Part shown: positions 13,108 through 31,764 of the stretch, one piece after another
How the letters are laid out: each line of letters starts with the position of its first letter
Numbering within the stretch: the first letter of the stretch is position 1
DNA from: Streptomyces anulatus
GTDB taxonomy: Bacteria > Actinomycetota > Actinomycetes > Streptomycetales > Streptomycetaceae
NCBI RefSeq assembly: GCF_000721175.1
Contig: NZ_JOEZ01000003.1
Span: 186,001-250,000, forward strand
Length of the DNA stretch: 64,000 nt
Direction: 5' to 3'
Notes under the pieces: generated by a model
The model's database searches: none
The model's input: only the letters and a program-made list of their open reading frames with translations
What the model was told of the DNA's origin: nothing
Translations under genes and position numbers: made by a program

Positions 13108-14784
13108 CTACGCGCCTGCTCCGAGGGTGATGTCCCGTCCCTGCCCCTGCCTCTGTCCCTGTCCTTGTCCCGGCTTCTGTTCCTGCGGGATTCCCCTGGT
13201 CCTGTCGTCGCGGAGTTCGGCGGGCAGGAGGACGTCGGGGAAGGACTGATAGCAGACCGGGCGCAGCCAGCGTTCCACGGCGAGGGTGCCGACGCTCGTC
13301 GTTCCGGGGGAGCTCGTCGCGGGCCACGGCCCTCCGTGCACCATCGTGTGGCAGACCGCGACGCCGGTGGGCCAGCCGCCCCACAGGACGCGGCCCGCCC
13401 GCTCCTCCAGCACCGGCAGCAGCTCCAGGGCCGTCGCGCGGTCGGCGTCCGTTCCGTGCAGGGTCGCCGTCAGCTGCCCCTCCAATTCCTCCAGCAGGCG
13501 CAGGAGTTCTTCCGTACCGGACCAGCGCACGACGAGCCCCGCGGCACCGAACACCTCACCGGTCAGGTCCTCGTGCGCGCCGTAGGTGGCCGCGTCGCAC
13601 TCCAGGACCACGGGGGCCGGTGCGTAGGGGCCGGGCCCGGCCGTGCCACGGGCCACCTCCCGTACACCGGCGACGGTCTCCCACCGGCGTACGCCCTCGG
13701 TGCAGGCCCAGGCGATGTCCGGGGTGAGCATGACCTGCCCCTCCGCGGCCTTCACGGTCCGGGCCACCGCCGAGAGGAAGACGTCGCCCGCCGGCCCGGC
13801 GGGCAGCAGCAGGAGGCCCGGGTTCGTGCAGAACTGCCCCGCGCCGTTGGTCAGTGACGTCACGTACGCCTCCGCCGCCGGCTCCGGTTCGGCGAGGGCC
13901 CCGTCGAGCATGATCACGGGATTGACCGCGGACATCTCGGCGTGGACCGGGATGGGAACCGGCCGCGACCGGCCGGCGGCGACCAGCGCCAGCCCGCCCG
14001 TCCGGGAGCCGGTGAAGCCCACCGCGGTGATCCGTGGATCGCCGACCAGGGCGAGGCCGACAGCGTGGCCCCGGCCCACCAGCAGGGAGAACACCCCGGC
14101 CGGCATGCCGGTGCGCGCGGCGGCGGCCGTGACTGCGCGGGCCACCGCCTCACCGGTGCCCGGGTGTGCGGGGTGCGCCTTGACCACCACAGGGCAGCCG
14201 GCGGCCAGCGCGGACGCGGTGTCGCCGCCCGCGACCGAGAACGCCAGCGGGAAGTTGCTCGCACCGAACACGGCCACCGGGCCGAGGGGGATGCGCCGGA
14301 GCCGCACGTCGGTGCCCGAGGGCCCGGAGTCGATCCGGGCGCCGAGTGCCGTACCGCTCCTGACCAGATCGGCGAAGAGGCGCAACTGGTCGCAGGTGCG
14401 CGCCCGTTCACCGGTCAGCCGGGCCGCCGGGAGCCCGGTCTCCCGGGCCGCGAGCTCCAGCAGGGCGTCGCCGAGCGCCTCGATGCCCTCCGCGCAGGCG
14501 TCGAGGAAGGCCGCCCGGCGCCCGGGCGGCAGTGCGCGGAAGGCGCGGGCGTCCGCCGCGGCGAGCCGGGCCGCCTCGGCGACCTGTTCCGCCGAGGCGT
14601 CCCGGTGCGGAGGGCCGAAGGGTTCACCGGTCGCGGCGGCGATCGCGTGCCAGGCGTCCCCGGTGCCGGGGGCCTCACGGCCGGCCAGGAGTGAGTGCCC
14701 GGTCAGGAGCGAGTGCCCGGGCGGAGACGGGTGCCCCGGGAAGGGCGGGTGTCCGGGCGGAACTGGGTTGTCGGTCGGATTCAC
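13108..14784 (-). CDS. 2-oxoglutarate semialdehyde dehydrogenase (aldehyde dehydrogenase family)
   Basis: A 558-residue aldehyde dehydrogenase-family enzyme. Visible motifs are GASNFPLAFSVAGGDTASAL (the cofactor region typical of the 2-oxoglutarate semialdehyde dehydrogenase group), GFTGSRTGG, HAEMSAVNP (general-base Glu) and GQFCTNPG (nucleophile C319). It would oxidise 2-oxoglutarate semialdehyde, the product of the hydroxyproline route encoded divergently, to 2-oxoglutarate. The first 35 residues are an odd repeat of PGHP and GHSLLTGHSLLAG units and the tail is a GQGQGQRQGQG run, both probably from replication slippage; the native start may be nearer the second GHSLL. GGGAGA precedes GTG 14784. 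A GntR-type element lies upstream. Confidence 0.85.
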   Translation of the reverse strand: MNPTDNPVPPGHPPFPGHPSPPGHSLLTGHSLLAGREAPGTGDAWHAIAAATGEPFGPPHRDASAEQVAEAARLAAADARAFRALPPGRRAAFLDACAEGIEALGDALLELAARETGLPAARLTGERARTCDQLRLFADLVRSGTALGARIDSGPSGTDVRLRRIPLGPVAVFGASNFPLAFSVAGGDTASALAAGCPVVVKAHPAHPGTGEAVARAVTAAAARTGMPAGVFSLLVGRGHAVGLALVGDPRITAVGFTGSRTGGLALVAAGRSRPVPIPVHAEMSAVNPVIMLDGALAEPEPAAEAYVTSLTNGAGQFCTNPGLLLLPAGPAGDVFLSAVARTVKAAEGQVMLTPDIAWACTEGVRRWETVAGVREVARGTAGPGPYAPAPVVLECDAATYGAHEDLTGEVFGAAGLVVRWSGTEELLRLLEELEGQLTATLHGTDADRATALELLPVLEERAGRVLWGGWPTGVAVCHTMVHGGPWPATSSPGTTSVGTLAVERWLRPVCYQSFPDVLLPAELRDDRTRGIPQEQKPGQGQGQRQGQGRDITLGAGA

Positions 14785-14884
14785 GGCGATGCGTCTCCCT
14801 GTGCGCGCCGGTGGGCGGCGCGCCGTCGTCGGGTGCCCGGGTGAAAGTCACCGGGGCGGCGGCGTTGTCCTCGGGTCGTCCGGA

Positions 14885-14918
14885 TGTATAGCCTAAGCAA
14901 TGGCATGTGACATTGCAC
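14885..14918. promoter_or_regulatory. Shared operator between the aldehyde dehydrogenase and hydroxyproline dehydrogenase genes
   Basis: ATGTGACATTGCAC (14905-14918, plus strand) contains the palindromic core ATGT-G-ACAT. The same sequence with one mismatch occurs before the importer operon, and shorter matches occur before the gntR and collagenase genes. A minus-strand -10-like TATACA lies at 14890-14885, so a regulator bound here would cover the -35 region of the dehydrogenase promoter. It lies about 50 nt before the plus-strand start at 14970. Confidence 0.6.
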
Positions 14919-14969
14919 TACCGGTTGCCGTGAAGGCGCCGTGGCCGTGAACGGCACTGAGGGGTGGCC

Positions 14970-16130
14970 ATGAAAGTCGTAGTCGTCGGCGCGGGCATCG
15001 TGGGCGCCGCCTGCGCGTTCCACGCCGCCGCGGCGGGCCTCGACGTCACGGTCCTCGACCGGGGCCCCGTCGGCGCGGGCACGACCAGCCGAGGGGAGGG
15101 CAACATCCTCCTCTCCGACAAGGAGCCGGGACCCGAACTGGAACTGGCCCGGCTCAGCCGTGACCTGTGGGACGAGGCCGGTGAGGAACTCGGAGCGGAG
15201 GCCGTCGAGTTCGAGGCCAAGGGCGGCCTCGTCGTCGCGAGCACGCCCGACGCCCTCACCGCCCTGCACGCGTTCGCCGCACGCCAGGCGGCGGCCGGCG
15301 TCCGCACCGAACCGGTCGAACGCGTCCGCGACCTCGAACCGCATGCCGCGCCCGGCCTCCCCGGTGGCGTCCACTACCCGCAGGACGCCCAGGTGCAGCC
15401 CGTCCTCGCGGCGGCCGGACTGCTGCGCGCCGCGGTCCGGCGCGGCGCCCGGACGCGCACCGGCGAGGCCGCCGCCGCGGTCACCGGAGCCGACGGCCGG
15501 ATCACCGGGGTGCGCACCGCCGACGGCACGGTGCTGCCCGCCGACGCCGTGGTGAACGCCGCGGGCACCTGGGGCGGTGAGGTCGGCCGCCGGCTCGGCG
15601 TCCCCGTCGAGATCCTGCCGCGCCGGGGCTTCGTCCTCGTCACCGAGCCGCTGCCGCCGATGATCCGGCACAAGGTCTACTCCGCCGACTACGTCGCCAA
15701 CGTCGCCTCCAGCGACGAGGGGCTGGAGACCTCGTGCGTCGTCGAGGGCACCCGCGCGGGCACCATCCTGATCGGCGCCAGCCGCGAACGCGTCGGCTTC
15801 GACACCGCGATGAACCCGGCCGTGGTGACCGCGCTCGCCGCCCAGGCGTGCCGCCTCTTCCCGTTCCTGCGCGGCGTCCACCTGATCCGTGCCTACCGGG
15901 GCTTCCGGCCGTACTGCCCGGACCATCTGCCGGTCATCGGGCCGGACCCCCGCGTCCCCGGCGTCGTCCACGCGTGCGGCCACGAGGGCGCCGGCATCGG
16001 CCTCGCCCCCGGAACCGGCGCCCTGGTCACCGCCCATCTGCTCGGCCGACCGTGGCGCGGTGCCGATCCGGCCGCCCACACCGGCCTGCTGCCCGACCGA
16101 TTCCTCACCCCCGGAGGTGTGCCGAAGTGA
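14970..16130 (+). CDS. D-hydroxyproline dehydrogenase, FAD-dependent DAO-family subunit
   Basis: A 386-residue D-amino-acid-oxidase-fold flavoprotein. It has an N-terminal dinucleotide motif VVVGAGIVGAACA, the GTTSRGEGN loop, VNAAGTWGGEVG and a C-terminal HACGHEGAGIGLAPGTG flavin motif. With the ferredoxin-like and pyridine-nucleotide oxidoreductase-like proteins that follow, it matches the three-part D-hydroxyproline dehydrogenases that turn cis-4-hydroxy-D-proline into 1-pyrroline-4-hydroxy-2-carboxylate. ATG 14970 is preferred over GTG 14964 because GAGGGG lies 6 nt before it. Its stop overlaps the next start by 4 nt. Sarcosine- or glycine-oxidase activity would be the alternative reading of the fold alone. 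Confidence 0.85.
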   Translation: MKVVVVGAGIVGAACAFHAAAAGLDVTVLDRGPVGAGTTSRGEGNILLSDKEPGPELELARLSRDLWDEAGEELGAEAVEFEAKGGLVVASTPDALTALHAFAARQAAAGVRTEPVERVRDLEPHAAPGLPGGVHYPQDAQVQPVLAAAGLLRAAVRRGARTRTGEAAAAVTGADGRITGVRTADGTVLPADAVVNAAGTWGGEVGRRLGVPVEILPRRGFVLVTEPLPPMIRHKVYSADYVANVASSDEGLETSCVVEGTRAGTILIGASRERVGFDTAMNPAVVTALAAQACRLFPFLRGVHLIRAYRGFRPYCPDHLPVIGPDPRVPGVVHACGHEGAGIGLAPGTGALVTAHLLGRPWRGADPAAHTGLLPDRFLTPGGVPK

Positions 16131-16390
16131 CCGCAGCGACCGCGTTCACCGTGGACGGCGAGCCATTGCCGTTCATCCCCGGACAGACCCTGGCCGCCGC
16201 GCTCGTCGCCTCGGGCCGGGTCGCCTGGCGGACCACCCGGGGCGGGCAGCGGCCCCGCGGGATCTTCTGCGGGATCGGCGTCTGTCACGACTGCCTGGTG
16301 ACCGTCGACGGCACGGGCGGGCAGCGCGCCTGTCTGGTCCAGGCCCGCGCCGGCATGGCCGTCACGACCGGGGAGACCGACGATGAGTGA
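16127..16390 (+). CDS. [2Fe-2S] ferredoxin-like subunit of D-hydroxyproline dehydrogenase
   Basis: An 87-residue protein with the small-subunit [2Fe-2S] pattern: FTVDGEPLPFIPGQTLAAAL start, then CGIGVCHDC and a fourth Cys in GGQRACL. Such small proteins bridge electrons between the two flavoproteins in heterotrimeric sarcosine- and hydroxyproline-dehydrogenase complexes. GTG 16127 overlaps the stop of the previous gene (GTGA), and its own stop overlaps the next ATG by 8 nt, so the three subunits are probably made in step. Confidence 0.88.
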   Translation: MTAATAFTVDGEPLPFIPGQTLAAALVASGRVAWRTTRGGQRPRGIFCGIGVCHDCLVTVDGTGGQRACLVQARAGMAVTTGETDDE

Positions 16391-17879
16391 GCCCCGTGAC
16401 CCCGTGATGGCGAGCGGACCCCATGGCCCCGTCACGACGAGTGAGCCCCGTGATCTCGTGGTGGTGGGCGCCGGCCCGGCCGGCATGGCCGCGGCCGCCA
16501 CCGCCCTGGACGGCGGGCTGCGGGTCGTCCTCGTCGACTCGGGCGCCGCCCCGGGCGGCCAGTTCTGGCGCCACCCCCCGCTCCACGCCCAGGGGACCCT
16601 CCCGACCGCCGGCCTCCACCACGGCCTGCGCACCTACCGGGCGCTCCGCGCCACCCTCTCCGCCCACCGGCGCACCGGCCGGCTCACGCTGCTGCTGAAC
16701 CACCACGTGTGGACCACGGCCCGCGAGGACGACGGCTTCACCGTCCACGCCGTGGACCGCACCCGGGCGCCCGAGGAGCGGCCCGTCGTGCTGCGCGCCC
16801 CGGCCCTGTTGGTGGCGACCGGCGCCTACGACCGCCAACTCCCCTTCCCCGGCTGGGACCTGCCCGGTGTGCTCACCGCCGGCGGGCTCCAGTCGCTGCT
16901 CAAGGGCGGGGGAGTCGTCACCGGCCGCCGGGTGGTCCTCGGCGGCACGGGCCCCTTCCTGCTGCCCGTCGCCGCGGCCCTCGCCGCACGCGGGGCCGAG
17001 GTCGTCGCCGTGTGCGAGGCGGCTGCTCCCTCGGCGTGGCTGCGCCACCCCGTGCCGCTGCTGCGCAACCCGGCCAAGTGGGCCGAGGCCGCCCGGTACG
17101 GCGGCACGCTCGCCCGGCACCGGGTCCCGGTCCGTACCCGTACCGCGATCGTCGGTGCGGAAGGAGAGCAGGGGCGGGTCGCCGTCGTGCGCACCGCCTC
17201 CCTGGACGTGGACGGGAGCCCGCTCCCGGGCACGGAGCGCCGGATCGAGGCCGACACCGTGGGCGTCGGCTGGGGCTTCGTCCCCCAGCTCGACCTCCTG
17301 CTCCCGCTCGGCTGCGACCTCGCCGACGCGGGCGACGGCACCATGGCCACCGCCGTCGACGACGGCCAGCGCACCACGGTGCCCGGGCTGTACACGGCGG
17401 GGGAGACCTGCGGCGTGGGCGGGGCCGCGCTCGCGGTGAGCGAGGGCCGCGTCGCCGCCGTCTCGGTCCTCACCGACCTCTCCGCGCCGGGCCTGCCGAA
17501 CGCCCGGAGGCTCGCCGCGGAGCGTGCAGCGGTGGCCCGGCACCGTGCCTTCGCCCGGGCGATGGCACAGGCACACCCCCTGCCGCCGGCCTGGCCCGCC
17601 TGGCTGACCGACGACACACCGGTCTGCCGGTGCGAAGAGGTCACCGCGGGGGCGGTCCGGTCCGCCCACGCCGACGACGCGGCATCCGACCACCGGCAGG
17701 TCAAACAGCTGACCCGGGCCGGCATGGGCTGGTGCCAGGGCCGGATGTGCGGGCCCGCCGTGCACTGCCTCGTCTCGGCCCGCGATCAGCCGTACGTCCC
17801 CGCCGAACGGCTGATCGCGACCCCCGTCACCCTCGGTGCCCTCGCCGATTCCGGCGAGACCACTTCCGATCACACCTGA
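16383..17879 (+). CDS. D-hydroxyproline dehydrogenase, NAD(P)/FAD oxidoreductase subunit with BFD-like iron-sulfur domain
   Basis: A 498-residue protein with two Rossmann motifs (VVVGAGPAGMAAAATAL near 27; VVLGGTGPFLLPVAAALAARG near 182), TAGETCGVGGAALAVSEG, and a C-terminal BFD-like cluster-binding part (VCRCEEVTAGAV, then GWCQGRMCGPAVHC). This is the large subunit of the heteromeric dehydrogenase. The first 25 residues hold an imperfect in-frame repeat, SEPRDPV then SEPRDLV, encoded by GTGAGCCCCGTGA units at 16388 and 16441; the true start could be inside it. Confidence 0.85.
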   Translation: MSEPRDPVMASGPHGPVTTSEPRDLVVVGAGPAGMAAAATALDGGLRVVLVDSGAAPGGQFWRHPPLHAQGTLPTAGLHHGLRTYRALRATLSAHRRTGRLTLLLNHHVWTTAREDDGFTVHAVDRTRAPEERPVVLRAPALLVATGAYDRQLPFPGWDLPGVLTAGGLQSLLKGGGVVTGRRVVLGGTGPFLLPVAAALAARGAEVVAVCEAAAPSAWLRHPVPLLRNPAKWAEAARYGGTLARHRVPVRTRTAIVGAEGEQGRVAVVRTASLDVDGSPLPGTERRIEADTVGVGWGFVPQLDLLLPLGCDLADAGDGTMATAVDDGQRTTVPGLYTAGETCGVGGAALAVSEGRVAAVSVLTDLSAPGLPNARRLAAERAAVARHRAFARAMAQAHPLPPAWPAWLTDDTPVCRCEEVTAGAVRSAHADDAASDHRQVKQLTRAGMGWCQGRMCGPAVHCLVSARDQPYVPAERLIATPVTLGALADSGETTSDHT

Positions 17880-17888
17880 GGAGTTCCC

Positions 17889-18797
17889 ATGGACCGCACC
17901 TCCACCCCTGCCCGCATGCCCTGGCACGGCGTCATCGTCGCGACGAGCCTCCCCTTCGACCAGGACCTCGCCGTCGACCACGGCGCCTTCGGGGACAACG
18001 TCGCCCGGCTCGCCGAACAGGGCCTGCACGGCGTCGCCCCGAACGGCTCGCTGGGCGAGTACCAGACCCTGACGTACGAGGAACGCGACCGCGTCGTGGA
18101 GACCGCCGTCGCGAACGCCCCCGAGGGCTTCACCGTGATGCCCGGCGTCGGAGCGTACGGCGCGATCGAGGCGCGGCGGCACGCGCAGTTCGCCAAGGAC
18201 GCCGGCTGCCAGGCCGTCATGTGCCTGCCGCCCAACGCCTACCGGGCCGACGACCGCGCGGTCCTGGAGCACTACGCGATGGTGGCCTCCGCCGGACTCC
18301 CCGTCACCGCCTACAACAACCCCATCGACACCAAGGTCGATCTGCGCCCCGAGCTGCTGGCCAAGCTGCACGCCGAGGGGTTCATCGTGGGCGTCAAGGA
18401 GTTCTCCGGCGACGTCCGCAGGTGCTACGCCATCAACGAGCTCGCGCCCGGGCTCGACCTGATCATCGGCACCGACGACACCCTCCTCGAGGTCGCCGTC
18501 GCCGGCGCCAAGGGCTGGGTCGCCGGCTACCCCCAGGTCTTCCCGCGCGCCTGCCTCGACCTCTACAACGCCTCGCTGGCGGGCGATCTCGACACCGCGC
18601 TCCCGCTCTACCGCCGGCTCCACTCCGTACTGCGCTGGGACAGCAGGACCGAGTTCGTCCAGGCGATCAAGCTCGGCCAGGACATGATCGGCCGGGCCGG
18701 AGGCGTCTGCCGTCCGCCCCGGCAGGCCCTGGACCCGGAGACCGAGGCCGTCGTCCGCTCCGCCACCCAGGCCCTCATCGACGCCGGGGTGAACTGA
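17889..18797 (+). CDS. 1-pyrroline-4-hydroxy-2-carboxylate deaminase (DapA/DHDPS family)
   Basis: A 302-residue class I aldolase-fold protein of the dihydrodipicolinate synthase family. The GLHGVAPNGSLGEYQTLTYEE motif and the Schiff-base lysine in VGVKEFSGD (K170) are intact. In hydroxyproline operons the family member deaminates 1-pyrroline-4-hydroxy-2-carboxylate to 2-oxoglutarate semialdehyde, the substrate of the divergent aldehyde dehydrogenase. GAGGAG precedes ATG 17889 by 5-6 nt. A lysine-biosynthesis DapA role is unlikely in this setting. Confidence 0.85.
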   Translation: MDRTSTPARMPWHGVIVATSLPFDQDLAVDHGAFGDNVARLAEQGLHGVAPNGSLGEYQTLTYEERDRVVETAVANAPEGFTVMPGVGAYGAIEARRHAQFAKDAGCQAVMCLPPNAYRADDRAVLEHYAMVASAGLPVTAYNNPIDTKVDLRPELLAKLHAEGFIVGVKEFSGDVRRCYAINELAPGLDLIIGTDDTLLEVAVAGAKGWVAGYPQVFPRACLDLYNASLAGDLDTALPLYRRLHSVLRWDSRTEFVQAIKLGQDMIGRAGGVCRPPRQALDPETEAVVRSATQALIDAGVN

Positions 18798-18798
18798 C

Positions 18799-19800
18799 AT
18801 GCGCTCCACGGTCTGTTACCACGCGGTCGACTCGCACACCGAGGGAATGCCGACCCGGGTCATCACCGGCGGGGTGGGCGTCCTGCCGGGCGCGACCATG
18901 GCAGAACGGCGGCAGCGGTTCATGGCGGAGCGCGACGGGCTGCGCACCCTGCTCATGTGCGAGCCGCGCGGGCACGCGTCCATGTCCGGAGCCATCCTCC
19001 AGCCCCCGACCCGGCCGGACGCCGACTTCGGCGTGCTGTTCATCGAGGTCTCCGGCTGCCTGCCCATGTGCGGCCACGGCACCATCGGCGTGGCGACGGT
19101 CCTCGTGGAGACGGGCATGGTCGAGGCGGTCGAGCCGGAGACCGTCGTACGCCTCGACACCCCCGCCGGTCTCGTCACGGCACGGGTCGCCGTGCGCGAC
19201 GGCCGCGCGGAGTCCGTCACCCTGGAGAACGTCGCCTCCTACAGCCACGCGCTGGACCAGGTCGTCGATGTGGAGGGACTCGGCACGGTCCGCTACGACA
19301 TGGCGTACGGCGGCAACTTCTACGCAGTCGTGCGCACCGAGGACCTCGGCATCCCCTTCGACCGGTCGGAGAAGCAGCGGCTGCTCGACGCGGGGCTTGG
19401 CGTCATGAAGGCGATCAACGAGCAGAACCCGGTGGTGCATCCGGAGGATCCCGCGATCGACGTCTGCCACCACGTCTATCTGGAAGCCCCCGGCTCGACC
19501 GCCGAGCACTCGCGGCACGCCATGGCGATCCACCCCGGATGGTTCGACCGCTCGCCCTGCGGGACGGGGACCAGCGCCCGGATGGCCCAACTGCACGCGC
19601 GGGGGCTGCTGAAGACCGGGCAGGACTTCGTCAACGAGTCCTTCATCGGCTCCCGCTTCACCGGCCGGATCCTGGCGGAGACCACGGTCGGCGGCCGGCC
19701 CGCCGTCCTGCCCTCCGTCACCGGCCGCGCCTGGATCACCGGGACCGCGCAGTATCTGCTCGACCCCACGGACCCCTATCCGACGGGATTCACCGTATGA
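18799..19800 (+). CDS. 4-hydroxyproline 2-epimerase (proline racemase superfamily)
   Basis: A 333-residue proline-racemase-fold enzyme with both catalytic cysteines: C91 in MCGHGTIG and C254 in DRSPCGTGTSAR. A Cys/Cys pair is known for proline racemases and 4-hydroxyproline epimerases. Its place directly after the deaminase gene and in the same unit as a D-hydroxyproline dehydrogenase favours the epimerase, turning trans-4-hydroxy-L-proline into cis-4-hydroxy-D-proline, the first step of the pathway. One base separates it from the previous stop, and its stop overlaps the next ATG. Confidence 0.85.
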   Translation: MRSTVCYHAVDSHTEGMPTRVITGGVGVLPGATMAERRQRFMAERDGLRTLLMCEPRGHASMSGAILQPPTRPDADFGVLFIEVSGCLPMCGHGTIGVATVLVETGMVEAVEPETVVRLDTPAGLVTARVAVRDGRAESVTLENVASYSHALDQVVDVEGLGTVRYDMAYGGNFYAVVRTEDLGIPFDRSEKQRLLDAGLGVMKAINEQNPVVHPEDPAIDVCHHVYLEAPGSTAEHSRHAMAIHPGWFDRSPCGTGTSARMAQLHARGLLKTGQDFVNESFIGSRFTGRILAETTVGGRPAVLPSVTGRAWITGTAQYLLDPTDPYPTGFTV

Positions 19801-20879
19801 CGGCCGATCCGTACACCGGGCCGGTCGGGACGGCGTACACCGGGCCGATCGGGACCGCCGACTGGCACACCGGGGGCGAACCGTTCCGGATCGTGCCCGC
19901 GTCCCCGCCGGCCGTGACCGGCCCCGGGCTCACCGTCGCCGAGCGCCGCACGGCCGCCATGGCCGACGCCGGGGCGCAGTGGACCCGGGCCCTGCTGTGC
20001 GGCGAACCGCGCGGCCACGCCGACATGTACGGGGCCTTCCTGGTCCCGCCGGACGACGCCGGGGCTCACCTCGGCGCCCTCTTCTGGCACAAGGACGGCT
20101 TCTCCACCGCCTGCGGCCACGGCACGATCGCCCTCGGCGCCTGGGCGGTCGCGACCGGCCTGGTCCCGGCGCCGGCCGACGGCAGGACGGACGTCGTCGT
20201 CGACGTCCCCTCCGGCCGGGTCACGGCGAGCGTGCGCACGGCCGGCGGCCGGATCGCGGACGTGACGTTCGTCAACGTCCCCAGCCATGTCCACGCGCGC
20301 GGCGTCGAGGTGGCGACCTCGCAGGGAACCGTCAGCGTCGACATCGCCTTCGGCGGCGCCATGTACGCCGTGCTTCCGGTGGACCGGCTCGGCCTCGGCC
20401 TGCGGGTCCGGCCGGGGGACGTCACCGCGCTCATCGCGGCCGGCCGTGAGATCCGCGACGCGCTGAACGCCGCCGACGCCGCCGAACACCCCGGGGATCC
20501 CCGGCTGTCGGGCGTGTACGGCACGGTGTTCACCGAGGAGGCCGGCGCTCCGGTGGAACGGGCCGACGGCACCTGGCGGTTGCACCACCGCAACGTCACG
20601 GTGTTCGCGGACGGCCAGGTCGACCGCTCCCCGTGCGGCTCGGGCACCGCGGCCCGGGTGGCGCTCCTCGCCGACGCCGGGGAGCTGCGGCTCGGCGACG
20701 AGCTGCGGCACGAGTCGGTGGTGGGCTCCGCCTTCCGGGCCCGGATCGAGCGGCCGACCACGGTCCACGGCCGCCCCGCGGTCGTCCCGGCCGTGACGGG
20801 CACCGCCTACGCCACCGGAACCAGCCGCTTCACCGTCGATCCCGACGACACCCTCGTACCCGGGTTCGTGCTGCGATGA
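19797..20879 (+). CDS. Second proline racemase superfamily protein
   Basis: A 360-residue paralogue of the preceding epimerase. The two catalytic positions are C106 (ACGHGTIALG) and C280 (DRSPCGSGTAARV). Because trans-3-hydroxyproline dehydratases of this superfamily are known to carry Thr at the second position, the Cys/Cys pair argues for racemase or epimerase chemistry, although the adjacent cyclodeaminase-like reductase is the usual partner of the dehydratase. Substrate could be 3-hydroxyproline or proline. The N-terminus holds an in-frame duplication, YTGPVGTA then YTGPIGTA, before the conserved start of the fold (DWHTGGEPFRIV). Its stop overlaps the next gene by 4 nt. Confidence 0.8.
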   Translation: MTADPYTGPVGTAYTGPIGTADWHTGGEPFRIVPASPPAVTGPGLTVAERRTAAMADAGAQWTRALLCGEPRGHADMYGAFLVPPDDAGAHLGALFWHKDGFSTACGHGTIALGAWAVATGLVPAPADGRTDVVVDVPSGRVTASVRTAGGRIADVTFVNVPSHVHARGVEVATSQGTVSVDIAFGGAMYAVLPVDRLGLGLRVRPGDVTALIAAGREIRDALNAADAAEHPGDPRLSGVYGTVFTEEAGAPVERADGTWRLHHRNVTVFADGQVDRSPCGSGTAARVALLADAGELRLGDELRHESVVGSAFRARIERPTTVHGRPAVVPAVTGTAYATGTSRFTVDPDDTLVPGFVLR

Positions 20880-21826: not shown

Positions 21827-21974
21827 GCGGAGGCAAGCGTCAACGCGCGCCACTACCGCCGGAATTCGGTATCACCGCGCACCGCCCCCGCACAACGCGC
21901 TTCACTCCCGCCGGGCTTCGGCTTCACGCACGCGGCCTCCGGCCGACGCGTGTCGCCTCCCCCGGACTTCTGCT

Positions 21975-22685: not shown

Positions 22686-22712
22686 GCGTTCCCCTTCACG
22701 ATTTGTCACCGC

Positions 22713-22832: not shown

Positions 22833-22861
22833 TTGGCTGTGCAATTTCACATTACTATGTT
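22833..22861 (+). promoter_or_regulatory. Promoter and operator of the peptide importer operon
   Basis: TTGGCT (22833-22838), a 17-nt spacer and TATGTT (22856-22861) form a plausible sigma-70-type promoter. The spacer contains GTGCAATTTCACAT (22839-22852), the reverse complement of the element at 14905-14918 with one mismatch. Transcription would begin near 22868, leaving a leader of about 170 nt before the substrate-binding protein gene, in which I see no gene. Confidence 0.6.
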
Positions 22862-23040
22862 ACGGGTCACACGATGCGGCGCGACGCATCTTCCGGCCCG
22901 CTCCGCCTCGCGTTCTGCAAGCAGTCGTCCTCCGGCCCGCTCGCGGCCGCCCGGATCGCCAAGCCCTTCAGGGCCCTCCCCTTTCCCTCCGGCCTGTTTC
23001 CGCCTTCGCCGTGACCCATCCCCGTACGAGGAGTGCACCC

Positions 23041-24786: not shown

Positions 24787-24806
24787 GGGGACGAGGACAC
24801 ATCGCC

Positions 24807-25778
24807 ATGACCACCCTCATTCCGCCGGCCGCCGGACCGGGCGACGCCCCGGCAGCCGGCGGACCCGGCTCACCCGCCCTGCCCGACGCGCTCTGGCGGA
24901 CCACCTGGCGCCGCCTCTGGGGCGACCGGGGCAGCCGGACCGCCCTGATCGCCGCCGCCCTGCTGATCCTGGTCGCCCTCACCGCGCCCCTGCTCAGCCG
25001 GCTGGGCGGCTGGTCGCCCACCGCCTTCGACGCCGACGCCATCGACCCCTACCTCGGCGGACTGCCCCACGGCGCCCTCGGCGGCGTCAGCGCCGAACAC
25101 TGGCTCGGCGTCGAACCGGTCACCGGCCGCGACCTGTTCGCCCGCGTCGTCCACGGCGCCCAGGTCTCCCTGCTGATCGCCTTCGCCGCCACCGCGATCG
25201 TCGTCGTCACCGGCACCGCCGCGGGCATCGCGGCCGGCTACTTCGGCGGCCGCGTCGACACCGTACTGAGCCGGCTGATGGACCTCACCATGTCCTTCCC
25301 CTCGCTCATCTTCATGATCGCGATGATGTCGGTGGCCCAGGACGTCAACCGGGTCGTGCTGATGACCGTCGTCATCGGCGTCTTCGGCTGGCCCGGCATC
25401 GCCCGCGTGGTGCGCGCCGAAGCCCTCTCCCTGCGCCACCGCGAATACGTCGAGGCCGCCCGCGCCTGCGGCAGCGGGCCCTGGCGCATCCTCACCCGGC
25501 AGGTGCTGCCCAACATCTCCGGGCCCGTCATCGCGTACACCACGCTGCTGATCCCCGGAATGATCAGCACCGAGGCGGCGCTCAGCTTCCTCGGGGTGGG
25601 CGTGCGCCCGCCCACCCCCTCCTGGGGCCAGATGATCGCGGAGGCCGTCGCGTACTACGAGACGGACCCCATGTACTTCATCGTCCCCAGCGTCTTCCTC
25701 TTCGTCGCCGTCCTCGCCTTCACGGTCCTCGGCGACGCGCTGCGCGACATCCTCGACCCCCAGGGAGGACGCCCGTGA
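24807..25778 (+). CDS. ABC peptide transporter permease, OppC/DppC type
   Basis: A 323-residue membrane protein with about six helices. It has the N-terminal OppC-type cytoplasmic arm, LGVEPVTGRDLFARVVHGAQ after a long first loop, and the EAA loop YVEAARACGSGPWRILTRQV LP. Start ATG 24807 follows ACGAGGA. It overlaps the next gene by 4 nt (GTGA). The OppC-before-OppB order is less common than the reverse. Confidence 0.88.
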   Translation: MTTLIPPAAGPGDAPAAGGPGSPALPDALWRTTWRRLWGDRGSRTALIAAALLILVALTAPLLSRLGGWSPTAFDADAIDPYLGGLPHGALGGVSAEHWLGVEPVTGRDLFARVVHGAQVSLLIAFAATAIVVVTGTAAGIAAGYFGGRVDTVLSRLMDLTMSFPSLIFMIAMMSVAQDVNRVVLMTVVIGVFGWPGIARVVRAEALSLRHREYVEAARACGSGPWRILTRQVLPNISGPVIAYTTLLIPGMISTEAALSFLGVGVRPPTPSWGQMIAEAVAYYETDPMYFIVPSVFLFVAVLAFTVLGDALRDILDPQGGRP

Positions 25779-26761
25779 TCGCCTACCTGGTCCGCAGACT
25801 CCTCGGCGTGGCCGGCGTCCTGCTCGCCATCTGCGCCGTCACCTTCGTGATCTTCTACCTGCTGCCCGCCGACCCCGCTTCGGCGGCCTGCGGCAAGACG
25901 TGCAGCCCCGAACGCCTCGCGGAAGTACGCCACTTCATGGGCCTCGACCAGCCCGTCTGGCGGCAGTTCGGCGACTACCTCGTCGGGATCTTCGCCGGCC
26001 GCGAGCTGGGCAGCGGCCCCCACGCGCTGCAGTGCGGCTTCCCCTGCCTCGGCTACTCCTACGAGAACGCCCTGCCGGTGTGGGACCTGCTGATGGACCG
26101 CCTGCCCGTCTCCGTCTCCCTGGCCTTCGGCGCCGCGGGCCTGTGGCTGGTGCTCGGGCTGAGCGCCGGGGTGACCGCCGCCCTGCGCAAGGGCGGGCTG
26201 CTCGACCGCACCCTGATGGTCGGCGCGGTGGCCACGGCCTCCCTGCCCGTCTACTTCACCGCGGTGATGCTCCTGTACGGCCTGGTCCGGCTGACCGGGC
26301 TGCTGCCCTACCCCGCCTATGTCCCGCTCACCGACGACCCCGTGGCCTGGGCGGTCAACCTGCTGCTGCCCTGGATCGCCCTGGCCCTCCTCTACGCCGC
26401 CATGTACGCGCGGCAGAGCCGCAGTTCGATGATCGAGACGATGGCGCAGCCGTACATCCGGACGGCCCGCGCCAAGGGCCTGCCCGCCCGGACCGTCGTG
26501 GTCAAACACGGACTGCGGTCAGCGATGATGCCGGTCCTCACGCTCTTCGGCATGGACCTCGGCGCCCTGCTGGCCGGAGCGGTCATCACCGAGTCCATCT
26601 TCGGCATCCCCGGCGTCGGCAGGCTCTTCTACGACGCCCTGCAACGCTCCGACCAGCCCGTCGTGCTCGGCGTCACCCTGCTCGCGGCCTTCTTCATCGT
26701 GGCGGCCAACGTCGTCATCGACCTCCTGTACGCCGCCGTCGACCCGAGGGTGAGGAACTGA
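25775..26761 (+). CDS. ABC peptide transporter permease, OppB/DppB type
   Basis: A 328-residue permease starting MIAYLVRRLLGVAGVLL, the typical OppB opening, with about six helices and the EAA-loop region YIRTARAKGLPARTVVVKHG. It has a Cys pair (CGKTCSPE) in the first external loop and another (CGFPC) further on, an unusual feature that might form disulfides outside the membrane. GTG 25775 overlaps the stop of the preceding permease. Confidence 0.88.
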   Translation: MIAYLVRRLLGVAGVLLAICAVTFVIFYLLPADPASAACGKTCSPERLAEVRHFMGLDQPVWRQFGDYLVGIFAGRELGSGPHALQCGFPCLGYSYENALPVWDLLMDRLPVSVSLAFGAAGLWLVLGLSAGVTAALRKGGLLDRTLMVGAVATASLPVYFTAVMLLYGLVRLTGLLPYPAYVPLTDDPVAWAVNLLLPWIALALLYAAMYARQSRSSMIETMAQPYIRTARAKGLPARTVVVKHGLRSAMMPVLTLFGMDLGALLAGAVITESIFGIPGVGRLFYDALQRSDQPVVLGVTLLAAFFIVAANVVIDLLYAAVDPRVRN

Positions 26762-26762
26762 C

Positions 26763-27836
26763 GTGCCGCCCACCACCGAACCGGACCACCCCCTGCTGCG
26801 CGTCCACGACCTGCGGGTCGCCTTCGACACTCCCACCGGAACCGTCCAGGCGGTCGACGGGGTCTCCTTCACCGTGGCGGCCGGCCGCACCCTCGGGCTG
26901 GTCGGCGAATCCGGCTCCGGCAAGTCGGTCACCTCCCTCGCCGTGATGGGCCTGCACCGCCGGGCCCGGGTGAGCGGATCGATCACCCTCGCCGGACAGG
27001 AGCTCCTCGGCCTGTCCGACCGCCGCTTCGGCCGACTGCGCGGACGCCGGATGGCCATGGTCTTCCAGGACCCGCTGTCCGCACTGCACCCCGCGTACAC
27101 CGTCGGCGAACAGATCGCGGAGGCCCACCGCCACCACTTCGGCAGCAGCCGCCGCGTCGCCCGAAGACGAGCCGTGGAGATGCTCGGCGAGGTCGGCATC
27201 CCCGAACCGGGCCGCCGGGCGGGGGAGTACGCCCACCAGTTCTCCGGCGGAATGCGCCAGCGCGCCATGATCGCCATGGCCCTGTCCTGCGAACCCGAAC
27301 TGCTCGTCGCCGACGAACCGACCACCGCGCTCGACGTCACCGTCCAGGCGCAGATCCTCGAACTGATCGCCCGGCTCCAGCAGGAACGCGGGCTCGGCGT
27401 CCTGATGATCACCCACGACCTGGGCGTGGTGGCCCGCGTCGCCCACGAGGTGCTCGTCATGTACGGCGGGCGCGGCGCCGAACAGGCCCCGGTGGACGAG
27501 CTGTTCCACAGCCCCGCGCACCCCTACACCCGGGGCCTCCTGGACTCCCTGCCCCGACTGGACGACCCGGACGACGCACCACTGCGCGCCATCCCCGGCT
27601 CCCCGCCGTCACCGGCCGAGCCGAGACCCGGCTGCCCCTTCGAACCGCGCTGCCCCCGGGCTGCCGCCGCCACCGCCCCGGAGCGGGCCCGCTGCGCCGA
27701 GGAGAGCCCGCGCCCCAGGGACGTACCCGACGGCGGCCGGCTGGTCGCCTGCCACCTTCCCCTGCCGGCCGCCCCGGCCGCCCCGCACTCCGGCCCGGCC
27801 GGCGGGGTCCCCGTACCGGCCGAGGAGGCCCGATGA
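26763..27836 (+). CDS. ABC peptide transporter ATP-binding protein, OppD type
   Basis: A 357-residue ATPase: Walker A GESGSGKSV, Q-loop MVFQDPLSALHP, signature FSGGMRQRAMIAMAL, Walker B LLVADEPTTALDV, and the oligopeptide C-terminal domain with CPFEPRCPRA. It starts with GTG one base after the preceding stop and its own stop overlaps the next ATG. It pairs with the following ATPase to power the importer. Confidence 0.9.
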   Translation: MPPTTEPDHPLLRVHDLRVAFDTPTGTVQAVDGVSFTVAAGRTLGLVGESGSGKSVTSLAVMGLHRRARVSGSITLAGQELLGLSDRRFGRLRGRRMAMVFQDPLSALHPAYTVGEQIAEAHRHHFGSSRRVARRRAVEMLGEVGIPEPGRRAGEYAHQFSGGMRQRAMIAMALSCEPELLVADEPTTALDVTVQAQILELIARLQQERGLGVLMITHDLGVVARVAHEVLVMYGGRGAEQAPVDELFHSPAHPYTRGLLDSLPRLDDPDDAPLRAIPGSPPSPAEPRPGCPFEPRCPRAAAATAPERARCAEESPRPRDVPDGGRLVACHLPLPAAPAAPHSGPAGGVPVPAEEAR

Positions 27837-28894
27837 AACCCACGTACGCCAAGCCCCGCCGCCCAGAAGCCCGTTCGTCGAGCGTCGGGTCCGCATCGGC
27901 GGCGGCCGGGCCCGCCTCCGCGCGGCCCCTGCTGTCCGTACGCGATCTGGTGAAGACGTTCCCCGGCCGTCGCGTCCTGGGGCGGGCCACCGCGCCGGTC
28001 CGCGCGGTGGACGGGGTCGATCTGGAGCTCGCGGCGGGGGAGACCCTCGGGCTGGTCGGGGAGTCCGGCTGCGGCAAGTCCACCACGGGCCGGATGCTGG
28101 TCCGGCTGCTCGAACCCACCGCGGGCACCGTGGAGTTCGAGGGCCGCGACATCACCCATCTGTCCCCGCGCGAACTGCGGCCCGTCCGGCAGCGCCTCCA
28201 GATCATCTTCCAGGACCCCCACGCCTCCCTGAACCCCCGGCAGACCGTTGCCCGGATCATCGCCGAACCCCTGCTGGTGCAGGGCTCCACGGTCGCGGCG
28301 GCCCGGGACCGGGCCGCCGAACTGCTCGACCTGGTGGGTCTGGGCGCCGAACACCTGGACCGGCATCCGTACCAGTTCTCCGGCGGTCAGGCCCAGCGCA
28401 TCGGCATCGCCCGCGCCCTGGCGACCGGCCCCCGCCTGATCGTCGCCGACGAGCCGGTCTCCGCGCTCGACGTGTCCGTCCAGGCCCAGGTCGTCAACCT
28501 GATGGAGCGTCTGGGCGCGGAGCTGGGGCTGTCGTTCCTCTTCATCGCGCACGACCTGTCCGTCGTGAAGCGGGTGTGCGACCGGGTGGCGGTGATGTAT
28601 CTGGGCCGCATCGTCGAGATCGGTGACAAGCGCGAGCTGTACGACCGGCCGGCGCATCCCTATACCCGGGCGCTGCTCTCGGCGGTGCCGCTGCCCGACC
28701 CGGCGGCGGAGCGGCGCCGGGAGCGGATCATCCTGCTCGGTGACCCGCCGAGCCCCGCCGCGCCGCCCAGCGGCTGCGGATTCCATCCGCGCTGCCCCAA
28801 GGCGCAGGCCGTGTGCCGTACCGAGCGGCCGCTGCTCCAGGTCGTGGGCTCCGGCGCGCGCACGGCGGCCTGCCACTTCCCCGAAACGGGCTGA
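27833..28894 (+). CDS. ABC peptide transporter ATP-binding protein, OppF type
   Basis: A 353-residue ATPase: Walker A GESGCGKST, Q-loop IIFQDPHASLNP, signature FSGGQAQRIGIARAL, Walker B LIVADEPVSALDV, and the C-terminal oligopeptide-transporter domain with CGFHPRCPKAQ. It is the last gene of the importer operon; a 10-bp perfect hairpin follows 8 nt after its stop. The signature has Ala (GGQAQR), a small change from the usual GGQRQR. Confidence 0.9.
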   Translation: MKPTYAKPRRPEARSSSVGSASAAAGPASARPLLSVRDLVKTFPGRRVLGRATAPVRAVDGVDLELAAGETLGLVGESGCGKSTTGRMLVRLLEPTAGTVEFEGRDITHLSPRELRPVRQRLQIIFQDPHASLNPRQTVARIIAEPLLVQGSTVAAARDRAAELLDLVGLGAEHLDRHPYQFSGGQAQRIGIARALATGPRLIVADEPVSALDVSVQAQVVNLMERLGAELGLSFLFIAHDLSVVKRVCDRVAVMYLGRIVEIGDKRELYDRPAHPYTRALLSAVPLPDPAAERRRERIILLGDPPSPAAPPSGCGFHPRCPKAQAVCRTERPLLQVVGSGARTAACHFPETG

Positions 28895-28902
28895 GAGCCC
28901 CC

Positions 28903-28930
28903 GGCGGCCCGGAAATCCCTCCGGGCCGCC
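28903..28930 (+). terminator. Terminator of the importer operon
   Basis: GGCGGCCCGG (28903-28912) pairs perfectly with 28921-28930 around an 8-nt loop, directly after the OppF stop codon. It separates importer transcription from the collagenase gene, which then needs its own promoter. Confidence 0.7.
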
Positions 28931-29020
28931 AACCCCTGACGAGACGTCACTTTCCCGACGGGCCGCGTTCACCCGGAAGTCGCATCGGATTCGGCCCTGG
29001 GTCTTCCCTGTGAAGTGTGA

Positions 29021-29045
29021 CCTGTGCCATTGTACATGTCACAGG
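29021..29045. promoter_or_regulatory. Operator-like palindrome before the collagenase gene
   Basis: The 25-base element has arms CCTGTGCCAT and ATGTCACAGG (imperfect dyad, 9 of 12 pairs) around TGTAC. Its minus-strand reading includes TGTGACAT, the core seen at the three other positions of the locus. It lies about 140 nt before the collagenase start. The base composition around it is less GC-rich than its neighbours, as expected for a promoter, but I cannot place -35 and -10 boxes with certainty. Confidence 0.55.
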
Positions 29046-29184
29046 GCGTGGGCATGTCAACCGCGGCATGGACCCCATTCCGTCCGGCCGGCAGCACGGC
29101 ACGACAACACCCCCTGGCCCACGCCCTGGACATCCCATCGGTCACGCATGCGCGTGCCTCCGATCCCTCATGGGAGGAAACAAC

Positions 29185-31764
29185 GTGAGAACCACACTCG
29201 TCCGCCGAGGTGTGGGTGCCGTTCTGCCCCTGGCTCTCGCCGGGGCGATGAGCGTCGCGCTGCTCGCGCAGCCGGCCCAGGCGCAGCCGAACTCCCCCTC
29301 GGCCGCCACGGCATCGAACGCGTCCCAGCCGTCCCGCCCCGGCGGCTCGGCCGACCCCGCGCCGCAGGCGCAGCAGTCCCCCACCTCGGACACCGGCCAC
29401 CAGGCCAAGGACCGGTTGAAGGCGTCCCAGCTCCCGCCGCTGAGCGCCGACAAGTCCCTCCTCAAGGAGGCCTACGGCGAGCACGACGCCCCGCGGAAGC
29501 AGGACGCGGGCAAGAAGTCCTCGGCGAAGGCGGCCGCCGCGTGCGACCCGGCCGACTTCACCGGCCGCACCGGAAGCGAACTGGTGCGCTTCATCAAGGC
29601 GTCCACCACGGACTGCGTGAACACCTTGTTCAGCCTCACCGGAAGCAACGCCCAACTGGCGTTCCGTGAAGCGCAGATGACGTCCGTGGCCTACGCGCTG
29701 CGCGACAACTCCGCCTACTACCCCGGGGACGCGAGCACCGGCACCCCGCAGCTCGTGCTGTACCTCCGCGCCGGGTACTACGTACAGTGGTACAACCCGG
29801 ACGTCGTCGGACCGTACGGCCCCGCCCTGGGGACCGCCATCCGCTCGGGCCTCGACGCGTTCTTCGCCAGCCCCCGGTCGCGCGACGTCACCGACGCCAA
29901 CGGCGAGACGCTGTCCGAAGCGGTCATCCTGATCGACAGCGCCGCGGAGAACGCCCGGTACATCTCCGTCGTCAAGCGGATGCTGGCGGACTACGACTCC
30001 TCGTGGAACGCGTCCTCGCGGATGCTCGCCGCGGTCAACAACGTGTACACGGTGACCTTCCGGGGCCACCAGGTGCCCGCGTTCGTCAGCGCCGTCGAGT
30101 CGGACCCGAGCCTCATCGACTCGCTGCACCGCTTCGCCGCCGACCACCTCTCCCTGCTGGAGGGCGACCAGGCGTACCTGACCTCCAACGCCGGACGTGA
30201 ACTGGGCCGCTTCCTCCAGCACACGAGCCTGCGGAACAAGGTCCGCCCGCTGGCCACCGCCCTGCTCCGGGACACCTCCATCACCGGCCCCACCGCCCCG
30301 CTCTGGGTGGGCATAGCGGAGATGGCCGACTACTACGACAAGGCGAACTGCGCCACGTACGGCGTCTGCGACCTCCAGGAGCGCCTCAAGCGCGAGGTCC
30401 TGCCGGTCCGTCACACCTGCAGCCCCAGCATCCGCATCCTGGCCCAGCAGATGACGTCCGCCGAACTGAGCGCCAGCTGTACCAGCCTCATCGAGCAGGA
30501 CGCCTACTTCCACCGGATCGCCAAGGACAACGGCCCGGTCGCCGACGACAACAACACGGCCATCGAGGTGATCGCCTACGACTCCAGCGCCGACTACCAG
30601 ACCTACGCCGGCGCGATGTACGGGATCGACACCAACAACGGCGGCATGTACTTGGAGGGCGACCCCGCCGTCGTGGGCAACCAGCCCCGCTTCATCGCCT
30701 ACGAGGCCGAGTGGCTGCGACCGGACTTCCACATCTGGAACCTCAACCACGAGTACACCCACTACCTCGACGGCCGGTTCACCATGTACGGCGACTTCGC
30801 CGCCAACATGACCACCCCCACCATCTGGTGGGTCGAGGGCTTCGCCGAGTACATCTCCTACCACTACCGCCAGGAGCCCTACACCGCGGCGATGACCGAG
30901 GCGGGCAAGGGCACCTACGCCCTGTCCACCCTGTTCAGCACCGACTACAGCCACGACACCACCCGGGTGTACCGCTGGGGCTACCTCGCCGTGCGGTACA
31001 TGCTGGAGAAGCACCCCGCCGACATGGACAAGGTGCTCGCCCACTACCGCGCCGGCGAGTGGAGCGCCGCTCGCACCTACCTCACGAGCACGATCGGCAC
31101 CCGCTACGACAGCGACTGGAAGACCTGGCTGACGGCCTGCGCCGCCGGTGACTGCGGTGGCGGTGGCCAGCCGGGCAACCAGGCCCCCACCGCCGCGTTC
31201 ACCGCCGCGGTCGAGGGCCTGACGGTCGCCCTCACCGACCGCTCGACCGACTCCGACGGCACCGTCGCCTCCCGAGCCTGGGACTTCGGCGACGGCACCA
31301 CCTCCACGCGGACCGACCCCACCAAGACCTACAGCGCCGCGGGCAGCTACACCGTCCGGCTGACCGTGACCGACGACCAGGGCGCCACGGCCACCACCAC
31401 CCGGGCGGTCGCCGTGACCGGCGGCTCCACTGTCGGCGAGTGCGCCGACCCCGACACCCGCGTCCTGGGCAAGGACTGCCGCCGCAGCAACCTCTCCGCC
31501 GCCACCGGCGACTACGCCTACCTCTACCTGTACATCCCGGCCGGCACCAAGCAGCTGAAGATCACCGTCAGCGGCGGTACCGGCGACGCGGACCTCTACT
31601 ACAGCGCTTCCAACTGGGCCACCACCGGCTCGCACACCAACCGGGCCACCGGGCCCGGCAACTCCCACACCCTGACCATCAGCAACCCGCGTTCCGGCGC
31701 CAACTACATCAGCCTCCACGCTGCGTCGGCCTTCGGCGGGGCCACCGTCACCACGAGCTACTGA
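29185..31764 (+). CDS. Secreted M9-family collagenase with PKD and PPC domains
   Basis: An 859-residue exported metalloprotease. Domains in order: signal peptide ending AQPAQA, propeptide (to about 115), activator and peptidase subdomains (about 115-655), a PKD domain (about 670-745) and a pre-peptidase C-terminal (PPC) domain (about 750-859), which in clostridial collagenases helps bind collagen. The zinc motif is HEYTH (522-526), with E551 or E555 (WWVEGFAEY) as third ligand, almost the same spacing as ColG. It should cut native collagen outside the cell. GTG 29185 is chosen because GGGAGG lies 7 nt before it and a signal peptide follows at once; the longer open frame from 29017 covers the operator region. 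Confidence 0.92.
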   Translation: MRTTLVRRGVGAVLPLALAGAMSVALLAQPAQAQPNSPSAATASNASQPSRPGGSADPAPQAQQSPTSDTGHQAKDRLKASQLPPLSADKSLLKEAYGEHDAPRKQDAGKKSSAKAAAACDPADFTGRTGSELVRFIKASTTDCVNTLFSLTGSNAQLAFREAQMTSVAYALRDNSAYYPGDASTGTPQLVLYLRAGYYVQWYNPDVVGPYGPALGTAIRSGLDAFFASPRSRDVTDANGETLSEAVILIDSAAENARYISVVKRMLADYDSSWNASSRMLAAVNNVYTVTFRGHQVPAFVSAVESDPSLIDSLHRFAADHLSLLEGDQAYLTSNAGRELGRFLQHTSLRNKVRPLATALLRDTSITGPTAPLWVGIAEMADYYDKANCATYGVCDLQERLKREVLPVRHTCSPSIRILAQQMTSAELSASCTSLIEQDAYFHRIAKDNGPVADDNNTAIEVIAYDSSADYQTYAGAMYGIDTNNGGMYLEGDPAVVGNQPRFIAYEAEWLRPDFHIWNLNHEYTHYLDGRFTMYGDFAANMTTPTIWWVEGFAEYISYHYRQEPYTAAMTEAGKGTYALSTLFSTDYSHDTTRVYRWGYLAVRYMLEKHPADMDKVLAHYRAGEWSAARTYLTSTIGTRYDSDWKTWLTACAAGDCGGGGQPGNQAPTAAFTAAVEGLTVALTDRSTDSDGTVASRAWDFGDGTTSTRTDPTKTYSAAGSYTVRLTVTDDQGATATTTRAVAVTGGSTVGECADPDTRVLGKDCRRSNLSAATGDYAYLYLYIPAGTKQLKITVSGGTGDADLYYSASNWATTGSHTNRATGPGNSHTLTISNPRSGANYISLHAASAFGGATVTTSY

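Follow-up and report, generated by a model that had tools for sequence, protein, structure and literature searches.

A predicted single-locus HypR regulon for collagen utilization in Streptomyces

We analysed a stretch of 64,000 nucleotides of Streptomyces anulatus DNA (contig NZ_JOEZ01000003.1, positions 186,001 to 250,000; hereinafter, the window), in which positions 13108-31764 hold the genes for a secreted collagenase of the M9 family, a five-gene importer of the Opp type, a GntR-family regulator and eight enzymes, all of which were confirmed. It has been reported that, in Streptomyces coelicolor, the GntR regulator HypR is a DNA-binding repressor of the hydroxyproline operon and of an M9 collagenase gene, that L-hydroxyproline induces the promoters of hypR and of this operon, and that deletion of the epimerase gene abolishes growth on L-hydroxyproline (PMC6608401). 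The S. anulatus locus is probably a one-locus form of this HypR regulon, dedicated to collagen use. The available evidence supports the view that the genes for collagenase, importer and hydroxyproline breakdown belong to a single predicted regulatory unit, and their grouping goes beyond chance because the linkage is conserved and the operator is shared.

The locus and its HypR boxes

The regulator encoded between the importer and the enzyme genes, where the sequence-only reading had already placed a GntR protein, is by its sequence an orthologue of HypR: all 14 residues named in PMC6608401 (DNA contact, zinc, ligand) are present, at a constant offset of +1. Its relative in S. coelicoflavus is 75% identical; S. 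coelicolor itself is absent from the loci fetched for comparison. The pattern TRCMATGTCAC, built from the sites bound in PMC6608401, has exactly four sites in the window at no more than one mismatch (14907, 22717, 22840 and 29024), one before each transcription unit. The count alone is a weak argument because 3 of 100 shuffles of the whole window (mean 1.31 sites) reach four as well, so that the position of the sites is the stronger one. The features of the locus, in window positions, are as follows.

13108-14784, minus strand: aldehyde dehydrogenase, Pfam Aldedh, nearest solved relatives 3v4c and 1eyy; probable alpha-ketoglutaric semialdehyde (KGSA) dehydrogenase
14907-14917, minus strand: HypR box TGCAATGTCAC, exact, between the aldehyde dehydrogenase gene and the hydroxyproline operon
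14964-16130, plus strand: DAO subunit of D-hydroxyproline dehydrogenase, like SCO6289; Pfam DAO
16127-16390, plus strand: 2Fe-2S subunit of D-hydroxyproline dehydrogenase, like SCO6290; Pfam Fer2_4
16383-17879, plus strand: FAD/NAD subunit of D-hydroxyproline dehydrogenase with Fer2_BFD, like SCO6291; Pfam, and a soxA-like NCBIfam match below cut-off
17889-18797, plus strand: DapA-like protein (HYPD); NCBIfam dapA family, below cut-off
18799-19800, plus strand: 4-hydroxyproline 2-epimerase with a Cys/Cys dyad (HYPE), like SCO6293; NCBIfam PRK13971, 377.4 bits with a cut-off of 376
19797-20879, plus strand: second proline-racemase-family enzyme, Cys/Cys (PRS2); Pfam Pro_racemase
20876-21826, plus strand: OCD/mu-crystallin family, probable Delta1-pyrroline-2-carboxylate (Pyr2C) reductase; Pfam OCD_Mu_crystall; overlaps the preceding gene by 4 nt
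21975-22685, minus strand: GntR/FCD regulator assigned as the HypR orthologue; Pfam GntR and FCD; 14/14 named residues
22717-22727, plus strand: HypR box TACAATGTCAC, exact, hypR promoter; identical to the footprinted S. coelicolor sequence (PMC6608401)
22840-22863, plus strand: composite operator TGCAATTTCACATTACTATGTTAC upstream of the importer genes, made of two box-like units with 1 and 2 mismatches, 13 bp apart
23041-24786, plus strand: solute-binding lipoprotein; Pfam SBP_bac_5, nearest solved relative 2wok
24807-25778, plus strand: Opp-type permease C; Pfam BPD_transp_1, OppC_N
25775-26761, plus strand: Opp-type permease B; NCBIfam Opp/Dpp/Nik B families, below cut-offs
26763-27836, plus strand: Opp-type ATPase D; NCBIfam OppD-like, below cut-off
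27833-28894, plus strand: Opp-type ATPase F; NCBIfam DppF/OppF-like, below cut-off
28903-28930, plus strand: terminator-like hairpin at the end of the importer operon; 11-bp perfect stem, fold z-score -5.3
29024-29034, minus strand: HypR box TACAATGGCAC with a single mismatch, ahead of the collagenase gene and inside an inverted repeat
29185-31764, plus strand: secreted M9 collagenase with M9_N, M9, PKD and PPC domains; Pfam, relatives 7esi, 7wss and 9l5o in the PDB

The hydroxyproline operon comprises, in this order, the DAO, Fer2_4 and FAD/NAD subunit genes, the DapA-like gene, the epimerase gene, the second racemase-family gene and the OCD gene, with spacings of -8 to +9 nt; the aldehyde dehydrogenase gene is divergent from it and the HypR box between them is common to both. 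The importer operon (solute-binding protein, C, B, D, F) is spaced by -4 to +20 nt. As the collagenase gene starts 290 nt past the end of the importer, behind the terminator-like hairpin and with a box of its own upstream, it is probably a separate transcription unit. A protein of the capsule synthesis type (PGA_cap), encoded upstream of the locus at 10896-12098 on the minus strand, is not a member.

The box TACAATGTCAC or TGC(A/C)ATGTCAC is present exactly in both the hypR and the hydroxyproline-operon promoters. Regulation by HypR is predicted for this strain as well. The 8.4-Mb genome contains three exact boxes, two of them at the locus; the third (C16:426546) lies across the start of a gene for a short-chain dehydrogenase with lipid-type neighbours and was rejected as a chance match. 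The genome has a single copy of the importer operator TGCAATTTCACATTA, and the composite operator is kept upstream of the solute-binding protein gene in relatives. In shuffled promoter-length stretches of the hypR, DAO, solute-binding protein and collagenase sets, a site was found in 14/990.

The collagenase most likely starts at a GTG (29185) behind GGGAGG and, with its stop at 31764, is 859 aa long. As stated in the sequence-only reading, it is a secreted M9 protein with an HEYTH motif and a PPC domain: besides the M9_N and M9 domains, it has HEYTH at residue 522, a Glu further downstream (EGFAEY) and an N-terminus that looks, by eye, like a signal peptide. Residues 102-651 match solved microbial collagenases, and the protein is predicted to be collagenolytic. 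The importer, likewise complete with its five genes at 23041-28894, has the composition typical of the Opp/Dpp type, namely, an SBP_bac_5 lipoprotein with a lipobox-like LLAAC (by eye), two permeases and two ATPases in one operon.

Elsewhere, at C43:30669-36403, the same genome has another M9 collagenase gene and, beyond it, two tandem aminopeptidase P relatives. In the collagenase tree (37 rows, consisting of single-frame matched segments without stops, with L035 and L074 dropped), this second collagenase groups with collagenases that adjoin hypR in other species. In the same tree, S. griseus-like collagenases from loci with and without the importer are intermingled, suggesting that the importer was repeatedly lost or gained among these loci.

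Linkage and operators across Streptomyces

The conservation of this arrangement was surveyed in 81 Streptomyces genomes (E <= 1e-60 for HypR, 1e-120 for the epimerase and 1e-150 for the importer solute-binding protein), in which HypR and the epimerase were each found in 66 genomes and M9 proteins in 52; with one row below the cut-off dropped (G007, 23.5 bits), 69 M9 genes were retained. The distance from an M9 gene to HypR or the epimerase is at most 25 kb in 33/52 M9-bearing genomes (33/69 genes; 11/40 of the higher-scoring and 22/29 of the lower-scoring class), and the same holds for 20/23 importer solute-binding protein genes. A gene-neighbourhood survey was among the checks proposed in the sequence-only reading, and the linkage came through it. 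M9 and the epimerase occur together in 50 genomes, M9 alone in 2, the epimerase alone in 16 and neither in 13 (Fisher p 1.2e-5, shared ancestry ignored). The importer was found in 22 genomes, all of which encode M9, compared with 30/59 importer-free genomes (p 1.1e-5, again ignoring shared ancestry).

The operator extends to M9 genes far from the hydroxyproline genes. Upstream stretches were fetched for 60 of the 69 M9 genes, one being lost to a contig end; both genes of the window strain are among the nine left out and were analysed separately. In a fixed 700-bp segment positioned relative to the M9 domain, a box is present in 44/59 genes, in contrast to 0/59 coding segments of equal length and 1/59 shuffled ones, and it is found in linked (22/29) and unlinked (22/30) M9 genes alike. 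A scan anchored on the first in-frame stop was rejected: 6/60 of its supposed coding controls had a site, because GC-rich frames stay open and these controls thus contained promoters.

The 80 fetched HypR loci are the best of 268, hence weighted towards close relatives, and contig ends truncate some of them; 36/80 have an M9 gene of at least 500 residues and 32/80 the importer solute-binding protein. Using the criterion of at most one mismatch within 300 bp upstream, boxes precede hypR in 79/80 loci, the solute-binding protein gene in 28/32, the DAO gene in 28/52 and the collagenase gene in 22/35 relatives, one of these 22 being only the box of the neighbouring hypR; an exact box lies upstream of the aldehyde dehydrogenase gene in 14/14 fetched relatives that possess it. 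Within the operons, none was found before the genes for the epimerase (0/67), the second racemase-family enzyme (0/46), permeases C (0/22) and B (0/19) or ATPases D (0/15) and F (0/13). The gene order varies: the collagenase gene follows the importer, is divergent from hypR, lies behind hypR or precedes the hydroxyproline operon.

We consider it likely that these loci represent a genus-wide, HypR-controlled collagen-utilization regulon of interchangeable cassettes, most with their own operator, which were reassembled in several orders into one locus, some collagenases travelling with hypR and away from the epimerase. The cassettes would be M9 collagenases of two score classes, the Opp importer together with aminopeptidase P, the hydroxyproline operon, the Liv-type importer of some species and the second racemase/OCD pair, the latter usually without an operator of its own. 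A hypR gene beside the collagenase gene and far from the epimerase gene is the only hypR found in four genomes (G019, G036, G047 and G055) and one of two in four others (G030, G057, G058 and G064).

Five such loci (L161-L165, from G055, G036, G064, G058 and G030, respectively) were inspected. In each, a lower-scoring M9 gene adjoins a hypR copy, which is an additional one in G064, G058 and G030 and the only one found in G055 and G036; aminopeptidase P is present in 4/5, and no hydroxyproline operon was found within the 20 kb fetched. In another locus (L178, G025:C1:6331000-6350999), the second racemase-family gene, the OCD gene, the importer and the collagenase gene form one contiguous block that has box-like sites; the only hypR found in this genome is 5.8 Mb away, as if the block had moved as one cassette.

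Several observations weigh against the reading of the window locus as a HypR regulon for collagen use. No M9 linkage exists in 19/52 M9 genomes, and the co-occurrence tests ignore shared ancestry. At one mismatch or less, 13/35 collagenase and 24/52 DAO promoters have no box, and the second collagenase of the window strain has a one-mismatch site only 0.7 kb upstream, with two-mismatch sites nearer. Conversely, box-like sites precede the genes for HYPD (34/68), FER2 (3/59), OXR (4/60) and OCD (2/48), so that the operon-internal control is not uniformly empty; given its high count, HYPD may be transcribed from a promoter of its own in some relatives. No box at one mismatch or less was found in the kgd stretch of the window strain, unlike SCO5281 of S. 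coelicolor, for which one has been reported (PMC6608401); accordingly, kgd was rejected as a HypR target in this strain and is regarded as a peripheral rather than a defining member. Finally, among 246 genomes of the class, M9 exceeded the cut-off in 12, ten of which are Streptomyces and two belong to one other genus; the two loci of the latter have no hydroxyproline genes and no boxes within 20 kb, and only Opp-like permeases of 32-37% identity.

Predicted pathway and alternative readings

Under the proposed scheme, HypR would occupy, when substrate is lacking, the boxes before the hydroxyproline operon, hypR, the importer operon and the collagenase gene, keeping expression low until hydroxyproline or one of its metabolites lifts the repression. 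The secreted M9 collagenase would then cut collagen, the Opp-type importer would bring in the peptides, and cytoplasmic peptidases would release hydroxyproline, a task for which most fetched importer-bearing relatives have a linked aminopeptidase P; in the window strain, copies encoded elsewhere probably substitute for it. Epimerase, three-subunit D-hydroxyproline dehydrogenase, deaminase and aldehyde dehydrogenase would convert trans-4-hydroxyproline to 2-oxoglutarate, and the second racemase-family enzyme together with the OCD reductase would probably return 3-hydroxyproline or a proline isomer to L-proline.

All eight enzymes had been assigned to the conversion of trans-4-hydroxyproline to 2-oxoglutarate. 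Six genes suffice for it, and the single eight-enzyme pathway was abandoned in view of the OCD gene and the second racemase-family protein, which probably form a side branch for 3-hydroxyproline or a proline isomer. The domain order of the operon is that of SCO6289-93 (PMC6608401), and the Cys/Cys dyad of the epimerase is kept in 66/67 relatives, the remaining one being unreadable. The aldehyde dehydrogenase matched no NCBIfam model above cut-off and is a probable member of the pathway by its position and operator.

The second racemase-family protein scores 277 bits against the NCBIfam dehydratase model, whose cut-off is 540, and it has Cys where 7qpo and 6r76 have Thr; in relatives, both Cys are readable in 43/46 and one of the two in the other 3. 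In the characterized trans-3-hydroxyproline dehydratases (t3HypDs), Thr replaces the second Cys as catalytic residue (PMC4113996), so that with Cys in place of the Thr of the dehydratase 7qpo, the label 'dehydratase' is unsafe for the window protein. It may be a 3-hydroxyproline dehydratase/epimerase or a proline racemase, and the 3-hydroxyproline branch is to be taken as predicted.

The sequence-only reading had joined these parts into one system that digests collagen, imports the peptides and burns hydroxyproline. The linkage and the boxes before all four units support such a linked system, for which peptides are the predicted importer cargo. An importer whose cargo is not collagen peptides but, for instance, free hydroxyproline, nickel or another small solute, and which would be co-regulated for that reason, is the foremost alternative, and we regard it as rather unlikely. 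It draws on the fact that nickel and other solutes are likewise among the ligands of family 5 binding proteins, and NikA-like models are among the matches. The nearest solved relative of the solute-binding protein, however, is 2wok, 'clavulanic acid biosynthesis oligopeptide binding protein 2' (297 bits, with the next at 137 bits). Moreover, in the searched genomes the importer is never found without M9: this holds for all 22 surveyed Streptomyces genomes that encode it, and although 18/32 fetched importer loci, mostly from Kitasatospora or near it, have no M9 gene within the stretch, M9 is encoded elsewhere in 17/17 of these genomes searched (L011 was left out; two to six matches each; no importer-free Kitasatospora served as control). 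The number of M9 matches per genome in these Kitasatospora and related genomes (L032-L070) exceeds that in most sampled Streptomyces.

A further point against a non-peptide cargo is that an aminopeptidase P relative usually adjoins the importer (28/32 fetched importer loci; the check for AMP_N and M24 domains covered L061 and L032). Family, nearest solved relative and co-occurrence thus point to peptide transport. In S. griseus-like loci that possess it, the aminopeptidase P gene lies between the solute-binding protein gene and hypR. It is absent from the window locus, as well as from L004 and the short contig L011; compared with L003, L006, L007, L008 and L042, the flanks align and about 1.5 kb carrying the gene is missing, a gap that would most simply be explained by a deletion. 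Elsewhere, the genome encodes five homologues at 54-58% identity, two of them beyond the C43 collagenase, and two weak ones. At C3:298682-301558, some 80 kb away from the locus, a tandem aminopeptidase P pair is preceded by a HypR-like box with one mismatch, about 0.1 kb ahead of the matched region; this is only suggestive.

The small-solute alternative also finds some backing in Liv-type ABC importers (branched-chain amino acid family), whose genes are present in four HypR loci that have no Opp importer: L024 (14475-17699, minus strand), L020 (about 4.7-8.1 kb, minus strand), L022 (about 4.2-7.4 kb, minus strand) and L071 (at the edge). The domains were tested in L024 and the other three were identified by tblastn. 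In L020, L022 and L024, the importer lies behind two exact HypR boxes; hence, hydroxyproline import under HypR may exist as an alternative, and the Liv-type importer may take up free hydroxyproline.

It is also unlikely that the true diet is plant hydroxyproline-rich protein or free hydroxyproline of the soil, with the M9 protein acting as a general gelatinase or peptidase rather than a true collagenase. The 16/81 genomes with an epimerase and no M9 are compatible with such a diet; against it, the window protein matches solved microbial collagenases over residues 102-651, and M9 is joined to the pathway by co-occurrence and shared operators. A chance neighbourhood of collagenase, importer and hydroxyproline operon is scarcely credible: the S. 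coelicolor collagenase gene and hydroxyproline operon have widely separated gene numbers (PMC6608401) and 19/52 M9 genomes lack linkage, but in a genome of 8.4 Mb about 0.6% of genes would be expected at 25 kb or less from a given locus versus the 33/69 M9 genes observed, the linkage recurs in at least four arrangements and in two M9 score classes, and the unlinked M9 genes are still boxed (22/30).

Relation to known systems

The interpretation of the locus as a HypR regulon for collagen use does not introduce the concept of a linked system, given that the S. coelicolor HypR regulon (PMC6608401) and a Colwellia cluster (PMC7883544) were already published; the novelty suggested in the sequence-only reading is therefore not supported. 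In S. coelicolor A3(2), the regulator residues, the box, the five domain types of the hydroxyproline operon in their order and an M9 gene under HypR are the same, whereas the genes for the collagenase (SCO5912) and the proposed aldehyde dehydrogenase (SCO1871) lie elsewhere in the chromosome and not in one locus as in the window strain; a peptide importer, aminopeptidase P and a second racemase/OCD pair are missing from Table 2 of that report (PMC6608401).

The collagen utilization gene cluster described in the Colwellia metagenome-assembled genome BB5, which has relatives in C. piezophila and C. psychrerythraea, likewise unites in one locus a secreted M9 collagenase, a transporter, hydroxyproline epimerase, D-hydroxyproline dehydrogenase, KGSA dehydrogenase and an OCD-type reductase, along with a deaminase (BB5) and proline peptidases (PMC7883544). 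It differs in being gammaproteobacterial, in having an MFS transporter and a TonB receptor instead of an Opp ABC importer, and in its PutR regulator, and the parts of the description available to us mention no shared operator.

For the proline racemase superfamily, a pathway of 4HypE, D-amino-acid oxidase, DHDPS and aldehyde dehydrogenase has been described, as has the pair of t3HypD and an OCD-type Pyr2C reductase, and S. lividans uses trans-4-hydroxyproline as sole carbon source (PMC4113996). The 4-hydroxyproline steps and the racemase/OCD-type pair are the same as in the window; the t3HypDs have Thr where the second family member of the window has Cys, and the passages of that source consulted here mention neither a collagenase nor a HypR operator (PMC4113996).

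In the open-licence literature, we found no importer or aminopeptidase P under HypR and no Streptomyces locus that combines collagenase, importer and hydroxyproline genes. As far as these searches show, what appears to be new is the importer and aminopeptidase P as predicted members of the HypR regulon, the single-locus form in Streptomyces, the modular arrangement across the genus and the operator on both M9 score classes.

A regulon described in a single strain thus becomes a testable genus-wide system, in which the importer and the X-Pro aminopeptidase are the predicted missing links between the secreted collagenase and hydroxyproline catabolism. The operator offers a simple means to select candidate collagen-responsive collagenases and importers in Streptomyces genomes, which would be relevant both to the turnover of animal collagen in soil and to the discovery of collagenase enzymes.
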